NCBI GenBank assembly: GCA_026390585.1
Contig: JAPLFP010000308.1
Coordinates: 1 to 34,346 of the forward strand
Length of the DNA: 34,346 bases
Direction of reading: 5' to 3'
DNA from: Ignavibacteriales bacterium
GTDB taxonomy: Bacteria > Bacteroidota > Ignavibacteria > UBA10030
Position 1 is the first letter of the stretch. Each line of letters begins with the position of its first letter. This document shows positions 2,389 through 27,178 of the stretch, piece by piece. The notes below the pieces were generated by a model. It had not been told where the DNA came from, ran no database searches, and saw only the letters and a program-made list of their open reading frames with translations. Both the position numbers and the translations under genes were made by a program.

Positions 2389-2400
2389 CGGGTGACGAGA

Positions 2401-2929
2401 AGCCATCTCAAAAATGTCACGTCACAAAGTGACGCCTTCGAGGTAAAGGCGTAAATCGCGCCTGTAACGAGATTCAACCCAGTCCTTGCGAGGAGTCCCG
2501 TTGCTTTCTGACGGGACGACGAAGTTCCGCTCTATGAATCCCGCTCGTAGGCGGAATCCAGAAGCGGGGCAATCTGAACTGCGCTCGACAGATTGCTTCG
2601 CAGAGAACGCTCGCAATGACATCAAGCTTGGAGTCATTGCGAGGAGCGAAGCGACGAAGCAATGAAAAACAAACCCTGTCATTCCCGCGAAAGCGGGAAT
2701 CCAGGACTGAGCTTCACACACGCACCGAGCCGATGCCGTTCACGTTCTGGATCCCCGCTTTCTCGCTCAACAACAGCGGGACGCACAAAACGCGAAAGCA
2801 AGCGGGGATGACAGTAGAAATCACTTCGCAAAAAGCGTTCGCAATGACTCGTTGTTTTTGTTTTTTGCGAGGAGGGTCACTTTGCGTGAGAATATTTCCT
2901 ATCCCTAGAGTGTTGTTGAGATAGGTTCT
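2401..2929. repeat. Composite spacer element, copy 1 (L...R orientation)
   Basis: The whole gap between the aminotransferase and aceK is one repeat unit with no convincing gene. The left end is AGCCATCTCAAAAATGTCAC (2401-2420). The right end, read on the minus strand, is AGAACCTATCTCAACAA (2913-2929). The same two end types recur at 18773-19033 and 22273-22485. Inside are shorter repeats: a 'tcattgcgaggagcgaagcg' unit and its inverse (about 2485-2515 and 2610-2665), and inverted 'gcgggaatcca/tggattcccgc'-type arms (2530-2570, 2680-2700, 2745-2815). ORFs across it (for example 2616-2924) are only translations of repeats. It ends 16 bases before the aceK start, so it may also act as its leader. 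Confidence 0.7.
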
Positions 2930-8833: not shown

Positions 8834-8908
8834 GGACGCTTAGCTCAGCTGGTTCAGAGCGCCGCCCTTACAAGGCGGAGGTCGCTGGTTCGATCCCAGC
8901 AGCGTCCA
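8834..8908 (+). tRNA. tRNA-Val (anticodon UAC)
   Basis: A complete cloverleaf of 75 bases can be drawn. The acceptor GGACGCT (8834-8840) pairs with AGCGTCC (8901-8907), with discriminator A at 8908. The D arm is GCTC...GAGC. The anticodon stem CCGCC/GGCGG encloses the loop CTTACAA, so the anticodon is TAC. The T arm is GCTGG/CCAGC with loop TTCGATC. The 3' CCA is not encoded (ACAAAG follows). A 26-base copy of its 3' end recurs at 9002-9027. Confidence 0.95.
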
Positions 8909-9027
8909 CAAAGCTTCTGCGAAGATTTGCTCCACCAGTTTCACGAGATCATAGCCGCCGGCTGAGCGTTTTGTGCGAAGTCCCGACGTTTTGTGTCGGG
9001 ATTCGATCCCAGCAGCGTCCACAAAGC
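8889..9027. repeat. Direct repeat of the tRNA-Val 3' end flanking an 87-bp insert
   Basis: The 26 bases 8889-8914 (T-loop to just past the acceptor end, TTCGATCCCAGCAGCGTCCA and CAAAGC) are exactly repeated at 9002-9027. The 87 bases between carry a hairpin (TCCCGAC/GTCGGGA, 8981-9001) and a 9-bp direct repeat CGTTTTGTG (8967 and 8987). The distal copy, not the tRNA itself, lies just before the terminator at 9048. This looks like an attL/attR pair or excision scar left by an element that used tRNA-Val as its site. A local duplication would give the same picture. No integrase gene is present. Confidence 0.6.
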
Positions 9028-14972: not shown

Positions 14973-14993
14973 TGTTGTCCAAGGAGTCAGTCC

Positions 14994-15096
14994 CTGGGGT
15001 GTCAGGCACCATTTCTCCGAAGGAGCCCTTCGGGGCTGACACCATCTCGGCTGGTCTGGAGCAAATAACGTGTCAGGGTATGGACCCTGACACCCT
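14994..15096. repeat. REP-like hairpin doublet, copy 1
   Basis: It begins CTGGGGTGTCAGG. The first hairpin (GTGTCAG/CTGACAC) has smaller hairpins inserted in its loop (CTCCGAAGGAG and CCCTTCGGGG). The second hairpin is GTGTCAGGGT-ATGG-ACCCTGACAC, then CCT. The same doublet is at 23364-23445. It begins 21 bases after the kinase stop codon and could also end transcription or protect the mRNA end. The rest of 14973-15224 shows only a short AACGC-TTC-GCGTT hairpin (15199-15211) just before the next gene. Confidence 0.7.
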
Positions 15097-15224
15097 AGGA
15101 ACCCCTGAGGCGCGTTCTTGTGACATTCTCTCGTGCCGTGGTGTTCTTTCATCTTTCGGAAGTAATTGCTTAATTTGTAGAGTTCAGATCGTTCCCTAAC
15201 GCTTCGCGTTCCCAACAGGTACCC

Positions 15225-16616
15225 ATGGAGACTCTCCGCACGGTTCTGGTGTTAGATGATAATCGGGTCTTCCTCGAAGATTTCGAATCACTGATGGAGG
15301 GCACGTTCAAGATCATCACGACACAGTCGGAAGCCGATGCGTTTGAAACGCTGAGCCGGATGAAAATCGACGCGATGCTTCTTGACCTGATGCTCAGCGA
15401 AGGACAAAGCGGGCTCGATGTCCTGAAACGCGTCAAGGAGTCGATGCCGGATTTCCCCGTTATCATGCTGACAGCACACGCGTCGGTCGAGAGTGCCGTA
15501 GAAGCAATGCGTCTGGGTGCTTACAGTTACATCTCCAAGTCCCCGAAGATTGAGGAGCTCAGGGCCATCGTTGAGAAAGCGCTGGCGGAACGTGAACTCA
15601 AAAGAGACTACGAGTTGTTGCGCGAAGAGGTCCAACGCGTCTCCGGAAGCATTGTTGGCACCAGTCCGACAATGCAGCGAGTGTTCGAATCGATTCAGCG
15701 CGTGGCGATGACGGATGTGACGGTGTTGATCACCGGCGAGTCGGGGACAGGCAAGGAGTTGGTGGCTCGCGAAATACACGCTGCCAGCAAAAGAAGTCAA
15801 CGCGTGTTCGTCACAGTCAATTGTGCGTCGCTCGTACGTGAACTGATTGAGAGCGAACTGTTCGGTCACCAGAAGGGATCGTTCACGGGAGCAACAGCGA
15901 CCAAGCTTGGCAAGTTTGAGCTGGCAGACGGCGGTACGATCTTCCTGGATGAGATTGCGGAGCTCGATGTTCATCTCCAGGTGAAACTTCTGCGTGCGCT
16001 CCAGGAAAAGGAGATCGACCGCATCGGAGGTACGAGCCCGATTCCTGTTGACGTGCGGGTCCTTGCTGCCACCAATCGTGATTTGAATTTGATGACAGAA
16101 CGGGGAGAGTTCAGGACTGATCTCTTCTATCGTTTAAACGTGTATCCGATTCACCTGCCTCCGTTGCGCGAACATCGGGAGGATATTCCGTTGCTCGTCG
16201 AGCACTCCCTGAAGCGGTTCGGAAGGTCTTTGAACAAGACTTCGATTCGGGTCAATCCTCTGGCACTGGATCAAATGATGCAATATAGCTGGCCGGGGAA
16301 TGTCCGTGAGCTGGAAAACGTCCTTCAGCGCGCAATTCTGATTTCGCCCAGTGCGTCCATCGAACCGGACCATCTTCCGAGAGAAATTGCAGATACCAGC
16401 GTTCCGATCGTGGATGGCCAGACGCTTCCAGACATTGAGCGGGAGGCTCGTGATGCGGCAGCAAGGGTAGCCATTTATAGAGCGCTGGAGCGGGCGGATT
16501 GGAACATCAAAGAGGGGGCAAAGCTCCTGGGTGTGCCCGATAAGACGCTCTATGACAAGTGCTCTCGTCTTGGGATCAAGTTGAGGGGGATGCAGAGTTC
16601 AAAGCCAACCGACTAA
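15225..16616 (+). CDS. Sigma-54-dependent response regulator (NtrC/PilR family)
   Basis: The 463-residue protein has the full three-part layout. The receiver (about 5-120) has Asp54 in LLDLMLSEGQSG. The AAA+ sigma-54 interaction domain (about 142-370) has Walker A GESGTGKE from residue 171, GSFTGA at 218-223 (the sigma-54 contact loop, usually GAFTGA), Walker B GGTIFLDEI and the arginine-finger region FRTDLFYRLNV. A Fis-type helix-turn-helix ends the protein (NIKEGAKLLGVPDKTLYDKCSRLG). It should bind enhancer DNA and open sigma-54 promoters by ATP hydrolysis. The Lys switch site reads SKSP rather than KP. The ATG at 15225 fits the fold. It lies just upstream of a pilus-like locus, and a near -24/-12 element precedes the first gene of that locus, so it is the likely local regulator. 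Confidence 0.95.
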   Translation: METLRTVLVLDDNRVFLEDFESLMEGTFKIITTQSEADAFETLSRMKIDAMLLDLMLSEGQSGLDVLKRVKESMPDFPVIMLTAHASVESAVEAMRLGAYSYISKSPKIEELRAIVEKALAERELKRDYELLREEVQRVSGSIVGTSPTMQRVFESIQRVAMTDVTVLITGESGTGKELVAREIHAASKRSQRVFVTVNCASLVRELIESELFGHQKGSFTGATATKLGKFELADGGTIFLDEIAELDVHLQVKLLRALQEKEIDRIGGTSPIPVDVRVLAATNRDLNLMTERGEFRTDLFYRLNVYPIHLPPLREHREDIPLLVEHSLKRFGRSLNKTSIRVNPLALDQMMQYSWPGNVRELENVLQRAILISPSASIEPDHLPREIADTSVPIVDGQTLPDIEREARDAAARVAIYRALERADWNIKEGAKLLGVPDKTLYDKCSRLGIKLRGMQSSKPTD

Positions 16617-18551: not shown

Positions 18552-18773
18552 ATGCTCGTGGCCAGTGAAACTCAAAGCGTCAACCGCTATCGTCTTTGCC
18601 CAAAATGTGGTAACTTCTCGCATGTGCTGGAGGAGCAGTTCTACTGCATTCTCTGTGGAACAAAGCTCATCGAGCAATGCACTCAATGCGGAACATCGAT
18701 CCTGCATCCGCAGGGAAAGTACTGTCATCACTGCGGGAGCGCGTACCGTGATCCGCTCGTTGGCAATGAGTAG
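18552..18773 (+). CDS. Double zinc-ribbon protein 2 (paralogue)
   Basis: The 73-residue protein repeats the pattern of the gene at 17967: C16/C19 (CPKCGNF), C32/C35 (CILCGTKL), C43/C46 (CTQCG) and C58/C61 (CHHCGS). It lacks the long tail. Shared words (CPKCGNFS, CGTKL, the GK/GR-x-C-x-HCGS end) show a tandem duplication that has since diverged, with a repeat element now between the copies. The ATG at 18552 gives a 15-residue leader before the first cysteine; a shorter start cannot be excluded. The stop codon's last base coincides with the left end of the next repeat element. Confidence 0.7.
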   Translation: MLVASETQSVNRYRLCPKCGNFSHVLEEQFYCILCGTKLIEQCTQCGTSILHPQGKYCHHCGSAYRDPLVGNE

Positions 18774-19033
18774 AACGTATCTCAAAAACACTCTGTGAGA
18801 GAAAATAGTCTCACGCAAAGTCCCGCTGCTCGCAATGAACCAAAGCAACGAGTCATTGCGAGCGTTCTTTGCGAAGCAATCTATCCATCGACAGATTGCT
18901 TCGTCGTCCCGTCAGAAAGCAGCGGGACTCCTCGCAATGACTTGGTTGTATGTCGTTGCACTGCGGCTTGGCGCCTTTGCCTGCCTCGTGAAACTCCCTG
19001 AGGCAGGCGGGCGTGAGGTTTTTTGAGATGGCT
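18773..19033. repeat. Composite spacer element, copy 3 (R...L orientation)
   Basis: The left end is AGAACGTATCTCAAAAACAC (18773-18792), which is the R end type. The right end, read on the minus strand, is AGCCATCTCAAAAAA (19019-19033), which is the L end type. The element is therefore inverted relative to 2401-2929 and 22273-22485. Inside are the 'cattgcgag' units facing each other (18853-18861 and 18934-18942), and paired 'gacagattgcttcgtcgtcc' and 'cgaagcaat' arms. It fills the gap between zinc-ribbon gene 2 and the PilC-like gene almost exactly. Confidence 0.7.
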
Positions 19034-19059
19034 TGTAGTCTTGAGTTCAGGAAGACTTG

Positions 19060-22269: not shown

Positions 22270-22272
22270 AGT

Positions 22273-22485
22273 AGAGCCATCTTGAAAATGTCACGCAAAG
22301 TCCCGCTTCTGGATTCCGCTCATGAGCGGGATTCAGAGAGCGGAAGCGCAAAGACGCAGAGAATGGAGAGAAGAGAGTATTAAGTACCAGGTACCAAGTG
22401 GAAAAAAACATATACATGACTTCGCGGCTTTGCGTCTTTGCGAGAGATTCTTCTTACTTGCTGTTGGGTTTTTGACATAGGTTCT
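22273..22485. repeat. Composite spacer element, copy 2 (L...R orientation)
   Basis: The left end is AGAGCCATCTTGAAAATG (22273-22290), L type. The right end on the minus strand is AGAACCTATGTCAAAAACCC (22466-22485), R type. It starts 4 bases after the PilB stop. Inside are a 'ggattccgctcatgagcgggattc' palindrome (22311-22334) and paired 'gcgcaaagacgcag' (22346) and 'ctttgcgtctttgcg' (22428) arms. Its outer ends, not its inner parts, match the other copies. Confidence 0.7.
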
Positions 22486-22509
22486 AGTGAATATTCACAG
22501 GAGATCAGC

Positions 22510-23301: not shown

Positions 23302-23363
23302 ATGGCAATTGAGGAACAGCTAACGAACAGAGTCTATGCACTAGAACGAAACACATCTTGTTT

Positions 23364-23445
23364 CTGGGGTGTCAGGAACCATTTCCTGACACCACCTTGG
23401 CTCATTTGAAGAGAAGAGGTGTCAGGGTGTGGACCCTGACACCCT
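23364..23445. repeat. REP-like hairpin doublet, copy 2
   Basis: It starts CTGGGGTGTCAGG, as copy 1 at 14994 does. Hairpin 1 is GGTGTCAGG-AACCATTT-CCTGACACC and hairpin 2 is GTGTCAGGGT-GTGG-ACCCTGACAC. The linker (about 24 bases) shares GGCT with copy 1. This copy has the clean form of hairpin 1, without the inserted small hairpins. Paired inverted units of this type are typical of REP sequences spread by REP-associated (TnpA-REP) transposases; none is encoded here. Confidence 0.7.
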
Positions 23446-24757: not shown

Positions 24758-27178
24758 GTGTCAGCCAAGACTCTAAATACTGTGCAGGATCTCGCCAAGC
24801 TCAATGCGGCCAAAGAAGCTGCACGCCAATGCTTATTGGCCGCCGACAAGTTTTTGAAAGAGTCGCACTTCGAACTTGCCAGGCAGCAGTTGGAGAAAGC
24901 GCGGGAGCTCGATCCTTCCAACGCGTATATCTACGCGTTTCAGGATCGCATAGCGTATTTTGAGGAAAAGAAGAAGAAGGACGTTGCAAGCGGGGTGGCA
25001 CCCGCTCTGACGACACCGACACAGTATACCATTCCAAAACCGGTTATCAAGGCGGTTCCGAAGACGCCTTCCTCTGCCGTGGAGCACAAAGCAGAAGAGA
25101 TAGCGAGCACTCCTTCGCCTGCACCAGCTCTGGCGCCAGAAGAGCAGAAGAAAGAAGGAATCGCGGGTGCTCCTGCGCCGCCGGTTGATGTTCCCGCGAA
25201 GGACGAAAGGAAAGAACTACTAGCCGCACCTGACCGTGTCGAAGAATCGAAACCTGTGACGGTTGCCGAAGAGACCGAAGAGCAAATGCAGTTTCGGCTA
25301 GAGGAAGATCTTCGCAAGAAATTGGAAGAAGAGGCCCAGACCGCGCACGAGCAGGCGCGCAAAGTCGAGGAGCGTAAGCGCCAGGAAGCGGGGCGTAAGC
25401 TCGACGAACTTCGGAAAAAAGAGTCTACCGAACGAGCAGCCGGGGAAGAACAGAAAAAGCGAGAGCTCGAAGCGAGGGCGGCTGCGGAGGAACAACGGGG
25501 GCGTGAGCTTGAGGCGCGTGTTGCTGCAGAAGAGCAACGGCGGAAGGAGCTGGAGGCACGTATTGCTGCCGAGGTAGAGCGTCGGCGGGAAGATGAAGCG
25601 CGTGTGGGAGAAGAGCTTCGGCGCCGCGAGCTTGAAGCAAGAGCTCACGCAGAGGAGCGACGACGCAAAGAGCTTGAAGGGCGGGTCGCAGAAGAAGAGC
25701 GGAAACGGAAGGAACTCGAAGACCGCATTGCGATTGAAGAGGGTCGCCGCAGGGAGACGGAGGTCCGGGCTGCCGAGGAACAACGTCGACGCGAGCTGGA
25801 AGCGCGTGCAGCTGCCGAAGAGCAGAAACGGAAGGAGCTGGAAGCTCGAATTGCTGCCGAAGAGCAGCGGCGAAAGGAATTGGAAGCCCGTATCGCTGCT
25901 GAAGAGCAGCGGATGAGGGAAGAGCTGGCGCGGAAAGAAGAAGAGCGGAGACGAAGGGAATCTGAATCGAAGGCACTGGCCGAAGAGCAGATTCGAAAAG
26001 GTCTCGAGGCGCGGGTTGCGGAAGAAGAAAGACGTCGCAAGGACCTGGAGAAGCGGGCAGCGACGGAAGAACTGAGAATGAAGGAGATCGAGGCGAAGAT
26101 CTCTGAAGGGGAGAGGCGGAGAAAAGAGCTGGAAGAGTTGGCTGCAGCCGAGGAGCGGCGGCGGAAAGAATTTGAGGAGCTTGCGGCTGCCGAGGAGCGT
26201 CTGCGGAAGCAGATAGAAGAAAAGATGGTTGAAGAGTTGCACCGCAAGGAGATGGAAACGCGCGCGGCGGATGAGCAACGAAAAATTGAGGAGATACGCA
26301 GGCAGGAGGAAGTCCGAGCAGTTGATGAGTTGCGGCGGAAGGAAATGGAGGCTCGCGCTGCTGAAGAGCAACGAAAACTGGAAGACATGCGGCGTCAGGT
26401 CGAGGAATTGACTCAAGCCCTCGAAGTGGAGAAGAAAGCCCGCGAGGAGATTACGCGGCTGAACCTTCAGAACTCCGTCAAACAGCTTCGCTCGGCACTC
26501 GAAGCTGCCTGGGTGAACGGTGCTCCCGTGGATGCTGCTGCAAACGCCCTCCACGGACTGGCCATTTCACTCGAGATCCCTCCGGACGTCGAGCTGTCGA
26601 TCATCCGGGAAGTCAAGTTGGACATGTACAGCAAGGCGGTCAAAGAAGTCATCGCCAAGCGCAAACTTCTCCGGAGTTCGTCGTCGACCCTCGAATGGCT
26701 GAGAAAAGTGTATCAGGTCAGTGTCGCCGAGTACCTGGAGAATGAATCGAAATTCCTGCTCGATTTAGTGGCGGATCAGTACAAGGGAACGGTCCTTCTG
26801 GTGTCGAAGATGCTTGGTACGAAAGAGGACATCACTCCGCGGCTGAAATCTTCGGGATTTGCAGTCGTGCAAGCAGCAACCCCCGAGAATGCCCTGGAGA
26901 AAATCGAGAAGGTCAATCCGAACATCGTTCTCTGTGATACAGATTTTCCGGACGGGCTCAGCGGCATCAAGTTTTTGCATGTAATTCGCGCCAATTCCAA
27001 ATTCAATTACATTCCATTTGTTCTGGTTGGCGAAGTCGCGGAGATTGCGCAATTGAAGTCATCCGAACTGAAGCCGAACGAGGGTGTGATCAAACGCCCG
27101 ATCGATTACGAAGAACTCACGACACTGATGAACGAAAAACTTACGACGTTCAGGGAATATATTTCGTCACTGAAGTAG
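24758..27178 (+). CDS. Coiled-coil scaffold protein with a degenerate receiver domain
   Basis: The 806-residue protein opens at GTG 24758 with a TPR-like pair of helices (AARQCLLAADKFLKESHFEL, then ARQQLEKARELDPSNAYIYA). A Pro/Ala-rich linker (about 85-170) follows. A very long charged coiled coil (about 180-570) is built of 14-residue units such as LEARIAAEEQRRKE, repeated more than twenty times. A helical segment (about 575-665) leads to a receiver-like domain (about 676-806). That domain keeps an Asp in the beta3 position (IVLCDTDFPDG) and a Lys in beta5 (VIKRPID), but the acidic pair is replaced by LLVSKML and the Thr/Ser switch by FVLVGE. It is therefore probably not phosphorylated in the normal way. 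A cytosolic scaffold or polar organiser role is inferred from the architecture. A single receiver gene follows 57 bases on. Confidence 0.8.
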   Translation: MSAKTLNTVQDLAKLNAAKEAARQCLLAADKFLKESHFELARQQLEKARELDPSNAYIYAFQDRIAYFEEKKKKDVASGVAPALTTPTQYTIPKPVIKAVPKTPSSAVEHKAEEIASTPSPAPALAPEEQKKEGIAGAPAPPVDVPAKDERKELLAAPDRVEESKPVTVAEETEEQMQFRLEEDLRKKLEEEAQTAHEQARKVEERKRQEAGRKLDELRKKESTERAAGEEQKKRELEARAAAEEQRGRELEARVAAEEQRRKELEARIAAEVERRREDEARVGEELRRRELEARAHAEERRRKELEGRVAEEERKRKELEDRIAIEEGRRRETEVRAAEEQRRRELEARAAAEEQKRKELEARIAAEEQRRKELEARIAAEEQRMREELARKEEERRRRESESKALAEEQIRKGLEARVAEEERRRKDLEKRAATEELRMKEIEAKISEGERRRKELEELAAAEERRRKEFEELAAAEERLRKQIEEKMVEELHRKEMETRAADEQRKIEEIRRQEEVRAVDELRRKEMEARAAEEQRKLEDMRRQVEELTQALEVEKKAREEITRLNLQNSVKQLRSALEAAWVNGAPVDAAANALHGLAISLEIPPDVELSIIREVKLDMYSKAVKEVIAKRKLLRSSSSTLEWLRKVYQVSVAEYLENESKFLLDLVADQYKGTVLLVSKMLGTKEDITPRLKSSGFAVVQAATPENALEKIEKVNPNIVLCDTDFPDGLSGIKFLHVIRANSKFNYIPFVLVGEVAEIAQLKSSELKPNEGVIKRPIDYEELTTLMNEKLTTFREYISSLK

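Follow-up and report, generated by a model that had tools for sequence, protein, structure and literature searches.

Why should three gene gaps in a single 34,346-nucleotide stretch of Ignavibacteriales DNA (hereafter the window) hold spacers that agree at their ends and disagree in between? The first of these, E1 (2399-2928, plus strand, 530 bp, L end first), lies between an aminotransferase gene and aceK. The second, E2 (18773-19035, minus strand, 263 bp), begins with its R end, and the third, E3 (22274-22484, plus strand, 211 bp, L end first), separates a type II/IV secretion ATPase gene from a response-regulator gene. All limits are given without the flanking dinucleotide. A first-pass annotation had described three elements with common ends, each having one L and one R; this description holds for E1, E2, and E3, with limits that had been misplaced by at most 2 bases. 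Each L end resembles GAAGCCATCTCAAAAA, each R end resembles GAACCTATCTCAAAAA, and the two face inward. E1 is bounded by GAAGCCATCTCAAAAA (2399-2414, plus strand) and GAACCTATCTCAACAA (2913-2928, minus strand), and E2 by GAACGTATCTCAAAAA as its R end (18773-18788, plus strand) and CAAGCCATCTCAAAAA as its L end (19020-19035, minus strand). The R end of E3 is GAACCTATGTCAAAAA (22469-22484, minus strand). The L end of E3, GAGCCATCTTGAAAA (22274-22288, plus strand), is a weaker copy than first described and one base shorter. Once aligned, L and R prove to be two versions of one 16-bp repeat. The interiors are indeed unlike in length and in content.

All three elements sit between same-strand genes, and the closeness to stop and start codons remarked on at the outset is real. 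Measured by eye, E1 lies 10 bp past a stop codon and 17 bp upstream of the aceK ATG, E3 lies 4 bp past a stop codon and 25 bp upstream of an ATG, and E2 begins within a TAG stop and finishes 21-24 bp upstream of a start codon. The elements also fold better than shuffled sequence (z of -6.9, -6.1, and -3.3 for the three elements), as expected of palindromic content. Position and folding together would suit functional gene spacers, that is, terminators or signals for RNA processing that selection has retained after mobility was long lost. Terminator-like and promoter-like sites, however, occur at chance or slightly above, which lends little support to a regulatory role. An Rfam scan of the window gave a tRNA as its sole match.

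Other features of the window deserve brief description. A tRNA-Val gene (8834-8909) has its 3' end repeated 113 bp downstream, with 26 nt exact (8884-8914 and 8998-9027); the repeat may be the trace of an integration or of a duplicated attachment-like site. Another palindromic repeat, GTGTCAGGG...CCCTGACACC, occupies two gene gaps (14990-15102 and 23360-23445), and 25438-26400 is taken up by an extended array of 42-nt coding repeats whose content is charged and coiled-coil-like.

The genome to which the window belongs (G000; 4.72 Mb in 379 contigs, completeness 95) contains many more such ends. Within the window, AGAACCTATCTCAAAA has 5 matches with up to three mismatches, against 0.22 expected by shuffling. 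Across the whole genome, GCCATCTCAAAAA with at most one mismatch occurs 44 times (3 for the reversed pattern), GAACCTATCTCAAAAA with at most two occurs 49 times (2 reversed), and TAGAASSYATCTCAAAAA with at most three occurs 108 times (26 reversed). The ends are thus far more numerous than these controls. A genome-wide search for inward-facing L/R pairs, suggested with the original description, likewise found them: among 60 places matching TAGAASSYATCTCAAAAA with up to two mismatches, neighboring ends no more than 700 bp apart form 14 pairs, and all 14 point inward. Assigning strands at random gives a mean of 3.5 inward pairs and a maximum of 10 in 20,000 draws, and random positions give a mean of 0.5 close pairs. 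The paired elements of G000 number 27 and measure 111-534 bp including the TA; their interiors are repeats, with one GIY-YIG frame in contig C88. Like MITEs, they are short (about 50-1000 bp), have terminal inverted repeats, and lack a transposase gene.

The dinucleotide TA stands immediately outside 12 of 14 perfect ends. With one mismatch it does so at 16 of 27 ends and with two at 10 of 21, its frequency in the same DNA being 2.7%; these ends were picked regardless of their flanks, from loci matching GCCATCTCAAAAA and GAACCTATCTCAAAAA. A C precedes the flanking TA in 21 of 38 cases, and with the element's first base the site often reads CTAG. Both sides are TA-flanked in 12 of the 27 paired elements, one side in 11 (hence 23 with at least one), and neither in 4, counts that may be slightly low as the limits of C190:1702 and C335:8734 are a base or so off. 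E2 is flanked by TA at 18771-18772 and 19036-19037 and E3 at 22272-22273 and 22485-22486. The target-site duplication typical of MITEs is therefore present in the family, and the proposed check for it succeeds at E2, at E3, and at empty sites with a single TA (see below). It fails at E1, where a duplication is not demonstrable because the flanks are GA and TC, with no TA at either side. A 4-bp duplication of CTAG in place of TA was also considered; the constant outer G and C of the element keep it from being fully distinguished from a duplication of TA.

Duplication of TA is a trait of IS630/Tc1-type elements, and IS630 favors CTAG. The flanks would accordingly fit MITEs of that type moved by a DDE_3 transposase, genes for which occur in 5 of 17 related genomes examined. 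Nevertheless, none of the six DDE_3 loci in the 17 genomes has these ends, which IS5-type copies do have, and an IS630/Tc1 origin is very improbable. The DDE_Tnp_1 loci of 17 related genomes were also tried as partners, and none has these ends as its own. An IS1182-family transposase is an equally remote candidate for the mover. IS1182 copies in the same genomes also start with G after TA, often within CTAG, and two IS1182-like copies, one in G000 (C165) and one in G015 (C128), have CTAG at their ends. The ends themselves differ (GAGATTCGGACG and GCGATCCGGGCG), and the MITE ends belong to none of 22 loci matching the IS1182 model in 23 genomes; the single match is a separate MITE beside the C165 copy.

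Related genomes differ in which of these sites are filled. The closest sister found for the window region, G003, has about 85% nucleotide identity, and four G000 elements are without counterpart in it: C335:11480, C8:14649, C172:16230, and C257:7315. Each junction in G003 retains a single TA (CTAG, CTAA, GTAG, and CTAC, respectively). Rather than whole genomes, this comparison used 1,188,515 bases of G003 and, on the G000 side, 770,365 bases together with short loci; 32 G000 entries had usable flanks (some being one element in two loci), and 15 of them had any flank match. Several other compared sites are occupied in both genomes, disrupted, or too diverged, and the G003 elements checked against the G000 pieces gave no clean empty site. 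As for the window, the E1 gap holds no element in G001, G004, and G005, the only genomes comparable there; G003 has no aceK match and hence falls outside this comparison. The E2 site of G003 is occupied by a composite of about 330 bp that is unrelated to E2 and built of dispersed repeats (L183, about 15450-15785), and G002 and G005 have neither E2 nor the composite. E3 is present in G003 and absent in G001, G002, G005, and G015. Comparison of orthologous gaps thus finds presence varying between sisters in the E3 gap as well as at four further sites, which tells against spacers maintained for a function and leaves that explanation with scant probability.

Insertion sequences (ISs) with the same ends exist in related genomes. 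In G082, of the same order, locus L405 is an 861-bp IS with perfect ends, and in G136, of the same class, L404 is an IS of 846 bp in which each end has a single mismatch. Both were recovered by a protein search with an IS5-type transposase (E values of 1e-52 and 1.6e-60), and both have two frames that, by eye, overlap at a run of A6 or A5 followed by G. A search for exact TAGAAGCYATCTCAAAAA in 84,980 species genomes also reached transposase-bearing copies: among the 80 of 119 matches listed, three loci combine IS5-type transposase frames with inward ends spaced 838-898 bp, and of these loci L345 is a decayed copy. L359, one of the three and the source of the protein query, and L354 (a Planctomycetota copy) score 127.7 and 149.4 bits against the IS5-family model NF033580, above its cut-off of 110, and also match DUF4096 and DDE_Tnp_1; these profile scores belong to L359 and L354, and L405 and L404 are placed in the IS5 family by the protein search alone. 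With the second frame of L359 as query, 11 of 198 related genomes gave matches. Closer to the window, G004 (same genus) has a perfect end followed by a transposase C-terminus that is cut by the contig end, and G013 (same family) shows a broken copy along with an R-type end. Overall, the partner ISs measure 838-898 bp and have ends of about 16 bp with TA outside both. Their length of about 850 bp, two overlapping frames, and 2-bp TA duplication are those of the IS427 group of the IS5 family, which they resemble, an assignment by anatomy. The full-length copy with a transposase that had been sought is accordingly found in relatives (L405 and L404), and G000 itself, assembled in 379 contigs, yielded no intact partner transposase and a remnant at C299 only.

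Because ISs with matching ends exist in related genomes, E1, E2, and E3 are in all probability MITEs, non-autonomous elements moved in trans by an IS5-family IS of IS427 type, in whose shells other hairpin repeats nest. L405, L404, and the cut copy in G004 supply the autonomous elements with which the ends are held in common. The original suggestion of a non-autonomous mobile element is thus upheld by inward pairs, by TA outside the ends, by four empty sister sites, and by the transposase-bearing copies of relatives. Three observations count against the MITE explanation: G000 has no intact partner, E1 has no TA, and the copies in the window have diverged from one another and are not identical. 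If correct, the explanation accounts for one type of gene spacer in a Bacteroidota-labeled lineage that has been little studied and gives a concrete partner transposase.

A mechanism can be proposed from these features. An IS427-type transposase, supplied in trans by a partner IS, would recognize the terminal 16 bp, bind the two ends, and join the element to the target at TA, preferably within CTAG, with duplication of the TA. Because the element begins with G, a TA-purine stop codon that serves as the target would remain a stop, as TAG. This arrangement is seen at E2, where the TAG closes a zinc-ribbon-like frame, TA being the target and G the first base of the element. Insertion in a short gene gap would leave both neighboring genes intact, and the shells would then persist and receive other dispersed hairpin repeats. 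Such nested insertions would produce interiors that are unlike in length and content.

The contents of the shells bear on this last step. A hairpin repeat nested in E1 (2525-2568, no strand assigned) is 91% complementary to 22302-22345 in E3, within a nested hairpin block of 53 nt (22294-22346, no strand assigned) whose limits are ambiguous because CGCAAAG is present at both sides. E3 of G003 is the same shell minus this block, and G003 also has a correspondingly shorter copy at C333:27581. Gain of the E3 block in G000 is likelier than loss in G003 because the short elements, such as C165, C5, C129, and C51, lack a hairpin there. Five dispersed-repeat motifs occur inside and outside shells 5 and 15, 10 and 19, 2 and 4, 6 and 8, and 1 and 7 times, respectively, and are 38-199 times denser inside, a ratio that includes the intergenic bias of the shells. 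The sample comprises 51 pieces (770,365 bases), many of them picked for holding shells, and 14 shells (2,896 bases), one of which, L193:13417, is probably a false pair. By density the repeats favor shells, yet outside copies outnumber inside copies. The first-pass idea of a shell that collects other repeats is borne out by the shorter G003 copies and by these densities, and shells in common that differ in having nested hairpins could allow relative dating of repeat waves. Two GIY-YIG nuclease frames, L422 (G000:C88:1273-1491) and L417 (G000:C105:6499-6717), each come directly after one arm (ATTGCGAG...GAAGCAATCTATCC) of a dispersed hairpin, and sequence related to the arm recurs downstream. 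The arrangement is seen in 2 of 9 GIY-YIG matches of G000, and the C88 frame itself lies within an L/R shell. Dispersed hairpins of this kind may have a long form that includes a GIY-YIG frame.

The end sequence is also found well beyond this genome. A match with at most one mismatch is present in 39 of 80 genomes (G000 and relatives), the multi-copy ones being in families f1 and f5. Record titles among the TAGAAGCYATCTCAAAAA matches listed include Bacteroidota, Deltaproteobacteria, Desulfobacterales, Acidobacteria, Gammaproteobacteria, Chloroflexi, and Planctomycetota, and inward pairs occur in at least five phyla (Bacteroidota, Desulfobacterales, Acidobacteria, Gammaproteobacteria, and Planctomycetota). 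An inward mate (up to three mismatches, within 1 kb) accompanies 56 of 93 exact ends and an outward mate none; 16 of the 37 without a mate lie less than 300 bp from the end of the examined DNA. Having distinct L and R ends is a trait of the lineage, as two L-type ends are often seen in copies from other phyla. Single linkage sorts the interiors of 84 elements, all selected as paired (27 from G000, 22 from relatives, and 35 from the TAGAAGCYATCTCAAAAA loci listed), into 34 clusters, of which 25 are single; the largest, with 27 elements, is linked by common nested repeats. A broader reading, which we hold only tentatively and rate somewhat below even, is that the end of about 16 bp works across at least five phyla as a portable transposition ticket. 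An IS427-type transposase would move any DNA lying between two such ends, each lineage would have filled the shell with its own unrelated palindromes, and independent hairpin repeats would preferentially land in shells. Should the pattern across phyla be a matter of function, movement needs no more than a very short end, and non-autonomous elements could therefore arise repeatedly around any content. One end in several phyla around unrelated content may be new; neither this end sequence nor a single MITE end common to several phyla turned up in the literature searched, which does not prove absence from print.

Several known systems invite comparison. Correia, RUP, ERIC, and similar repeats are likewise small, intergenic, and TA-flanked, and have ends and partners other than those of the window's elements. 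Listed members of the IS427 group are 832-865 bp long with ends of 13-21 bp, mostly 2-bp repeats, and two frames with a frameshift motif (PMC3281130, PMC4133298); ISPsp10 duplicates TA (PMC4133298). The partner ISs are like the Paracoccus members (PMC3281130) and ISPsp10 (PMC4133298) in size, end size, TA, and two frames, a likeness of anatomy, and the window's elements differ in lacking a transposase. MITEPye1 of Paracoccus yeei is described as short and intergenic, with IS-derived ends and a long stem-loop, as in the window, but its ends are of the IS1182 family and it has 1-3 copies per chromosome (PMC11578231). MITEs with IS5-family ends and unlike interiors are already known from Porphyromonas gingivalis, where the ends of BrickBuilt and other MITEs match IS5-family ISs and presence or absence varies among strains (PMC4596501). 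These elements are like those of the window in belonging to Bacteroidota and in their IS5-family ends, unlike interiors, and internal repeats; in contrast, they have GAGACCTTTGCA-type ends, 4-base duplications at the sites described, and internal tandem repeats in place of nested hairpins (PMC4596501).
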